64,000 nt of DNA, from positions 421,416 through 485,415 of the forward strand of contig JAIXQR010000002.1 of the NCBI GenBank assembly GCA_027485645.1, given 5' to 3'. The notes under the pieces are model-generated. The model had not been told where the DNA came from. It saw only the letters and a list, made by a program, of their open reading frames with translations, and searched no databases. Below are positions 33,942 through 34,167 of the stretch, in pieces. The translations under genes were made by a program, and so were the position numbers. The stretch is from a bacterium (lineage in GTDB: Bacteria > Armatimonadota > Fimbriimonadia > Fimbriimonadales > Fimbriimonadaceae). Positions within the stretch are counted from its first letter, which is position 1. Each line of letters begins with the position of its first letter.

Positions 33942-34167
33942 TCCCAGCTTTTCCCAGGAAACGGGCTCCATCCCGGCTTTTTCCCAGATCTCCCCAGATT
34001 CCTTTTGAGGGCGTCTACATAAACGTCTACTATTTTTACTCTTTTTAGTAGTCAAATAGGAGTATTCGGATAGGTTTACCTATTAGCGGCTCCCCAAAAA
34101 TTCCCAAATCTCTCCAAAAAACTCAAAAAATTCCTTCCGTTGGACCAATGATTCCCGTATAATCCCA
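33942..34167. promoter_or_regulatory. Array of 10-bp-spaced TCCCA boxes, probable MraZ operators
   Basis: TCCCA or near-identical five-base boxes begin at 33942 and 33952; 33982 and 33992 (CCCCA); 34092 (CCCCA), 34102 and weakly 34112; and 34153 (TCCCG) and 34163. Within each group the spacing is exactly 10 bp, and the first three groups share the same phase. The last pair brackets the -10 element. The complement, TGGGA with 5-base spacers, matches the direct-repeat motif described for MraZ of E. coli upstream of its own operon. Autoregulation is inferred. Confidence 0.65.
34135..34163 (+). promoter_or_regulatory. Candidate promoter of the dcw cluster
   Basis: A consensus TATAAT lies at 34158-34163, about 150 bases before mraZ. 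The sequence at the ideal -35 distance (TTCCGT, 34135-34140, 17-base spacer) is weak. A better hexamer TTGGAC (34140-34145) is too close at 12 bases. A weak -35 would suit a regulated promoter. Confidence 0.5.

Follow-up and report, generated by a model that had tools for sequence, protein, structure and literature searches.

The DNA 5' of mraZ in this member of the Fimbriimonadaceae carries repeated TCCCA boxes, and the question is what reads them and how the division genes behind them are controlled. The window analysed here is the whole stretch of 64,000 nucleotides, part of a genome of 3.19 Mb (G000). A mraZ gene followed by mraW/rsmH is the usual beginning of a dcw cluster, and the locus has this arrangement:

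34158..34163, plus strand: -10 element TATAAT, without a good -35 box by consensus scan
34294..34299, plus strand: Shine-Dalgarno-like AAGGAG, containing one more GGA
34312..34815, plus strand: mraZ with an ATG start (Pfam MraZ, 50.6 bits)
34817..35764, plus strand: mraW/rsmH, second gene of the dcw cluster (PF01795, 285.4 bits)

The consensus promoter scan of the window yielded no good -35 box and no promoter-like sites. A TTG codon at 34306, six bases 5' of the ATG, is closer to AAGGAG and is kept in the sister species; it may be the true start of mraZ. The encoded protein matches MraZ chains in PDB; a literature search gave no article on the recent entries among these. Both its DxxGR motifs (D22/G25/R26 and D94/G97/R98), which we take to be the DNA-contacting ones, are invariant in 23 aligned sequences including its own. 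Thus a cognate MraZ with two DxxGR motifs is encoded directly 3' of the boxes. Among 61 genomes searched, the most similar MraZ (97% identity) is that of genome G014, below called the sister species. The G014 stretch is also held by a metagenome-assembled record, CAMCWC010000001.1 (L165), labelled Chthonomonas calidirosea; this label may be wrong.

The boxes upstream of mraZ form four groups, all read on the minus strand:

33942..33956, minus strand: distal pair TCCCA/TCCCA, 10 bp apart, of the MraZ type (TGGGA on the minus strand); both boxes identical in the sister species
33971..33996, minus strand: second distal group, TCCCG 33971, TCCCA 33982 and CCCCA 33992; the first two identical in the sister species, the third GCCCA there
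34092..34116, minus strand: middle group, CCCCA 34092, TCCCA 34102 and the weak CTCCA 34112; only TCCCA 34102 kept in the sister species
34153..34167, minus strand: predicted proximal operator that overlaps the -10 element and consists of TCCCG 34153 and TCCCA 34163; positions 34150-34170 identical in the sister species (21/21)

All nine boxes of the original prediction are present, and its coordinates are correct; it overlooked a tenth, TCCCG at 33971, which lies 11 bp 5' of 33982 and is kept in the sister species. The nine were said to exceed far the usual three. This is not supported as worded, since only five of them (33942, 33952, 33982, 34102, 34163) are exact TCCCA, the others being the variants CCCCA (33992, 34092), TCCCG (34153) and CTCCA (34112, weak). 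By strict criteria the window contains pairs only, and 33971/33982/33992 is a relaxed triple. The last pair, 34153 and 34163, indeed brackets the TATAAT hexamer.

Whether a C-rich intergenic spacer could produce such repeats by chance was examined with dinucleotide shuffles (n=3000) of the 378-bp gap 33934-34311 5' of mraZ. The gap contains six exact TCCCA against 0.87 in shuffles, and none of the 3000 shuffles reaches six; the sixth copy, at 34257, lies within an RNA hairpin arm and was left out of the box count. Pairs of [TC]CCC[AG] at a distance of 10 or 11 bp number five against 0.06, again with no shuffle out of 3000 matching the count. On neither strand of the 64 kb is there an exact TCCCA pair at 10-11 bp other than 33942/33952. 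Once a 10-bp frame is taken for granted, weak boxes turn up easily. However, the shuffle counts, the family-wide counts given below and the retention of the best boxes in the sister species leave the chance explanation hardly credible.

In the sister species the five best upstream boxes are identical in 25 of 25 letters. All eight upstream boxes together retain 35 of 40 letters, compared to 120 of 176 outside the boxes (one-sided Fisher p 0.009); the weak boxes 33992, 34092 and 34112 are the ones altered. The leader between promoter and gene is identical in 130 of 142 positions.

A search with a MraZ alignment in 113 genomes of the order found MraZ in 99 of them at E 1e-8 (101 matches). Upstream DNA was analysed for 100 of these matches (G007 was left out): 78 from family f1, 14 from f2, seven from f5 and one from f3. 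The f1 set includes two second copies of mraZ, in G019 and G004, both without the leader. These second, diverged genes (G019:C43:42520-42954 and G004:C2:198377-198715) have no match to the leader model.

Comparison of upstream regions was the check named in advance, and box spacing proved to be conserved: phased TCCCA pairs occur across f1. There are 26 pairs at 10-11 bp, compared to 0.14 in shuffles (at most 2). The pair distances in the 78 regions peak at 10-11, 20-22, 31-32 and 40-43 bp, and distances between these peaks are rare (six pairs in all at 12 to 19 and 23 to 29 bp). Helical phasing is thus real across the family, with a main step of 11 bp versus 10 bp in the window. An individual TCCCA pair at 10-11 bp is present in 17 of 78 f1 regions, and a CCCA pair in 35 of 78. 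In another 35 of 78 there is neither a strict CCCA nor a strict GTGG pair, so the operator there has either diverged or is absent. Strict runs of at least three boxes are found in nine of 100 regions for CCCA and in 16 of 100 for GTGG.

The proximal position recurs as well. In 24 of 85 f1/f5 regions, which were selected by this pattern, a -10-like hexamer ends in TCCC. Their boxes lie at about -17, -6 and +5 of the TATAAT-like hexamer, with a TTGCA-like -35 ahead. Selection accounts for the hexamer and the +5 box, whereas the -6 and -17 boxes and the -35 are unselected; the latter are majority letters and are not present in each of the 24 rows. The boxes span the -35/-10 core, and hence the operator in relatives is often placed inside the core promoter.

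Do the distal groups work together with the proximal pair? They had been described as sharing one phase over 170 bp in the first three groups. This holds modulo 10, but at 10.5 bp per turn the groups drift. Counted from 34163 (the reference, 0), the phases are 0.05 of a turn for 34153; 0.24, 0.19 and 0.14 for 34092, 34102 and 34112; 0.71, 0.76 and 0.71 for 33971, 33982 and 33992; and 0.95 and 0.90 for 33942 and 33952. Since the phases differ between groups, the boxes of the window do not lie on one helical face. This agrees with a scheme in which the proximal pair at the -10 element is the sole working MraZ operator, and the distal groups of the window are relics or of minor importance and form no loop. 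The alteration of the weak distal boxes in the sister species points in the same direction, as does the rarity of such groups: distal CCCA pairs are a minority trait, found in 12 of the 71 regions that carry the RNA leader described below. On the other hand, these 12 regions hold 18 distal pairs compared to 0.68 in shuffles (at most 4), and the five best upstream boxes of the window are unchanged in the sister species at a divergence that spared only 120 of 176 surrounding letters. We consider the proximal-only scheme a serious contender, though somewhat more likely to be wrong than right. The richest cluster among the distal pairs listed is in L020 (G017), where a CCCA array with five successive steps of 10-11 bp lies about 257-299 bp 5' of the leader.

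As predicted, the boxes face opposite to mraZ. In f2, 12 of 14 regions carry four copies of GTGG on the mraZ strand with a spacing of exactly 11 bp; these boxes lie mostly 28-61 bp 5' of the MraZ match and resemble the E. coli array. It follows that box orientation differs between the sister families f1 and f2. The predicted kinship of the complement to the E. coli motif also stands: the boxes of the window are the reverse complement of the K-12 array GTGGGAAATT-GTGGGGCAAA-GTGGGA, which, read by eye, lies 18-44 nt 5' of the mraZ ATG. Eraso reportedly described the E. coli boxes in 2014 as TGGGN-N5 repeats. The two operators share the core, although on opposite strands (GTGGGAAATT-type repeats in K-12), the 10-bp spacing seen in the window, the position 5' of mraZ and the protein family. 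They differ in orientation and in placement, as the boxes here overlap the -10 element and the spacer whereas those of K-12 lie 18-44 nt before the ATG; moreover, the spacing in relatives of the window is mostly 11 bp, and some have extra distal groups.

The available text on Burkholderia cenocepacia describes a MraZ site of four repeats, each 7 nt long and separated by 3 nt (PMC7761207). These too are repeated boxes with a 10-bp period at a mraZ promoter; however, by the same account they lie 3' of the -10 element over the start site, whereas those of the window surround the -10. In Mollicutes the boxes are AAAGTG[T/G], and MraZ represses division genes in M. genitalium, as far as the accessible portion of PMC8475190 goes. 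These are also direct repeats 5' of mraZ, but judged from that portion they differ from the boxes of the window in both sequence and orientation. Both MraZ boxes and the repressing effect of MraZ on division genes are already known from these sources, as far as their accessible parts show (PMC8475190, PMC7761207). The flipped orientation and the placement in the core promoter are new as far as our searches go. A flipped operator in the core promoter and a change of orientation between sister families bear on the way a ring-shaped regulator reads DNA.

Alternatively, the box sequence could act through a G-quadruplex formed by its G-rich strand; such a structure is reported for the S. aureus mraZ promoter in the text available from PMC11796246, which places it 3' of the promoter. 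Spaced GGG runs do occur on the minus strand. However, four tracts of at least three G with loops of 1-7 are absent from both strands of 33934-34175, and on the box strand such a canonical motif occurs in just three of 86 f1/f5/f3 regions. This explanation was rejected as very improbable.

With TGGG-type direct repeats about one helical turn apart 5' of mraZ, we conclude that the region very probably contains a MraZ operator.

Two conserved features of the region escaped the original prediction. One is the RNA leader considered below, and the other is a short element farther upstream:

34013..34030, no strand assigned: two direct copies of a GTCTAC/GTAGAC element (34013 and 34025), conserved in f1/f5 upstream regions

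GTCTAC or GTAGAC is found in 65 of 78 f1, seven of seven f5 and two of 14 f2 upstream regions. It is the 6-mer common to most f1 upstream regions; relative to the MraZ match it stands mostly at -310 to -235. A dyad with its own regulon was considered and dropped: GTAGACNNNNGTCTAC has no matches in the window at two mismatches, and a search of the genome with GTAGACATATGTCTAC, allowing three mismatches, gave the same number of hits as the backwards control (5 and 5 per strand).

The DNA between the promoter and mraZ has the potential to form a structured RNA. A covariance model (R1), seeded with 20 of 22 cut leaders, matches 71 of 100 mraZ loci, distributed among the families as follows: 65 of 78 in f1, six of seven in f5, none of 14 in f2 and not the single f3 locus. 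All matches are located 5' of mraZ on the same strand and end 34-150 bp before the MraZ match. The elements in the window are as follows:

34176..34265, plus strand: extent of the R1 match (43.5 bits); the genome has no other at E up to 1
34168..34209, plus strand: outer helix, GCAGAAG with CUUC..UGC, drawn by eye outside the covariance model
34180..34195, plus strand: hairpin A with loop ACGGAC (34185-34190), a predicted CsrA site; loop GGA in 57 of 71 leaders
34213..34222, plus strand: hairpin B, by eye GGG-GUAA-CCC here and of the GGGC-GGGGU-GCUC type in many relatives
34230..34260, plus strand: hairpin C, with apical GCA-AGA-UGC here and an NGGA loop in most relatives

A search with R1 across 291 genomes from the phylum gave matches in 58 at E 0.01, one in each. 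Fifty-seven of them belong to f1 or f5 and have bit scores in the range of the mraZ leaders. The remaining match, in G130 (E 0.0058, outside f1/f5), is marginal, has no mraZ-like frame behind it by ORF reading, and was attributed to chance.

The covariation score of the structure is 0.518; shuffled alignments score 0.202, and slid structures 0.132 or less. The alignment was fitted to the model, which favours the score, but the margin is large. Counted on the named structure, 82.9% of cells are paired, and double-changed cells number 341 compared to 122 after shuffling. The number of pairs with any double change (24 versus 21.0) is less telling. Pairing is observed in 75% of cells in hairpin A, 75% in hairpin B and 94% in the outer stem of hairpin C. 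RNAalifold recovered hairpin C only, both on the first MAFFT alignment and on the model-fitted alignment A3, and hairpins A and B rest on the counts for the named structure. The outer helix is seen in the minimum free energy fold of the sister leader and not in that of the window's own. Overall, a structured RNA leader directly 5' of mraZ is close to certain.

The leader matches no Rfam family in our scans. Positions 33900-34400 of the window have no Rfam match up to E 10, and a scan of 11 loci, including this one, yielded just SNORA7 (E 5) and RsmY (E 9.4) on two of the leaders, both at chance level and far below the gathering scores and hence discarded as identities of the leader. An intrinsic terminator was also rejected, since TTTT follows hairpin C in only four of 71 leaders. 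The sole terminator-like site, 34009-34028, lies 5' of the promoter, and its number is near the shuffle expectation (1 versus 0.6). R. sphaeroides likewise has a long 5' leader ahead of mraZ; in the part of PMC5089854 available, this dcw leader is connected with the sRNA UpsM. That leader is described there as 268 nt long with an intrinsic terminator, whereas the one considered here has a predicted length of about 140 nt, no terminator was found in it, and it has GGA hairpins.

These hairpins suggest recognition by the global regulator CsrA. The terminal loop contains GGA in 68 of 71 leaders for hairpin C, in 57 for hairpin A and in 54 for both. Its absence from the loop of hairpin A in 14 of 71 leaders speaks against the CsrA reading; if the stem is counted, hairpin A has it in 63. 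The stems of A and C are variable, but GGA is mostly retained in the loops, which is a signature of CsrA sites. Minimum free energy folds contain 1.62 GGA-loop hairpins per leader, compared to 0.53 in shuffles. The loop of hairpin C lacks GGA in the window genome, its sister and L063; the first two read AGA. This too speaks against the CsrA reading, as the window is left with one canonical GGA hairpin, the A loop, plus AAGGAG. It still shows the pattern of CsrA leaders, GGA in at least two loops or in one loop and the Shine-Dalgarno box.

The rules for CsrA sites, as given in the accessible text of PMC7652899, are the SELEX consensus RUACARGGAUGU, the ANGGAN hexaloop and the CsrB repeats CAGGA(U/A/C)G. 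Loops that fit them are CACGGAUG and CAAGGAUG in hairpin C and CAGGAUG in hairpin A. The same text states that a CsrA dimer bridges paired sites and that binding may suffer where stems are very stable (PMC7652899). The long stem of hairpin C would by this account argue against tight binding at C. The likeness to the glgC leader and CsrB, as far as that source presents them, consists in GGA hairpin loops, paired sites and a GGA in the Shine-Dalgarno box (PMC7652899). In distinction from known CsrA targets, no dcw or mraZ target was found in the literature search, and, judged from the listings, it returned no paper linking CsrA to mraZ or dcw.

Of 113 genomes of the order, 108 encode CsrA, as do 69 of 71 leader carriers; the two carriers without it, G062 and G099, are 73-74% complete. 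The window genome's CsrA keeps L4 and R44 (by eye) and matches solved chains of the CsrA family. Being nearly universal in the order, CsrA proves little by its co-occurrence with the leader; f2 mostly keeps CsrA and has no leader. Second, lower-scoring csrA-like genes were observed in G013:C107:15494-15637 and G005:C29:47776-47925.

One alternative accepts the MraZ operator and assigns the leader to a riboswitch or to an RNA-binding protein other than CsrA, the GGA being part of the fold. The strongest point for it is hairpin B: a GGGG in its modelled loop is conserved in 58 of 71 leaders and is neither predicted by the CsrA rules nor explained by CsrA binding. The covariation of the three-hairpin array as named would also suit such an element. 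However, the variable stems with mostly retained GGA loops in A and C are as in CsrA sites, the scarcity of TTTT after hairpin C makes a switch of the terminator type unlikely, and Rfam contains no riboswitch that matches. We regard this alternative as unlikely, if still worth attention. That CsrA reads the leader is slightly the better bet than that it does not. An RNA element of this kind, with CsrA-type loops and no Rfam match, is new as far as searched.

The explanation that we favour, and that is probable rather than secure, is a dual control, with MraZ acting at the promoter and CsrA on the leader. A MraZ ring on the proximal boxes would cover the -35/-10 core and exclude RNA polymerase, resulting in autorepression. 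The distal groups, where present, may add MraZ occupancy, possibly via a DNA loop. After transcription, a CsrA dimer could connect hairpin A with either hairpin C or the GGA of the Shine-Dalgarno box, and thereby change translation or mRNA stability of mraZ; the sign of the effect would more likely be repression, as in glgC. The output of division genes would then be tied to both the level of MraZ and the state of the Csr system.

The distribution of flagellar genes is relevant here. In the 21 genomes considered for FliW and flagellin, 15 have both and six have neither. The six (G000, G004, G005, G007, G008, G011) all keep csrA, and the other 15 have all three genes. Where CsrA is retained without FliW and flagellin, its targets are probably non-flagellar ones. 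The leader is present in four of the six and absent from G011, and G007 has no match in the phylum search, so we infer that dcw control is a candidate for such a non-flagellar role. In its broadest form the proposal is that in two families of one order the dcw operon is under Csr control through an RNA with paired GGA hairpins before mraZ, that this layer is stacked on a flipped MraZ operator in the core promoter, and that CsrA is kept for dcw where flagellin and FliW are gone. We hold this joint claim to be evenly balanced between true and false. If it is true, the leader represents a new RNA family and, to our knowledge, the first link between CsrA and a dcw cluster.

Elsewhere in the window, two adjacent frames, 28940-29725 and 29774-30586, have a common prepilin-type stretch near the N-terminus (AFTLIELLVVIAIIAILAAILFPVFAQAK).
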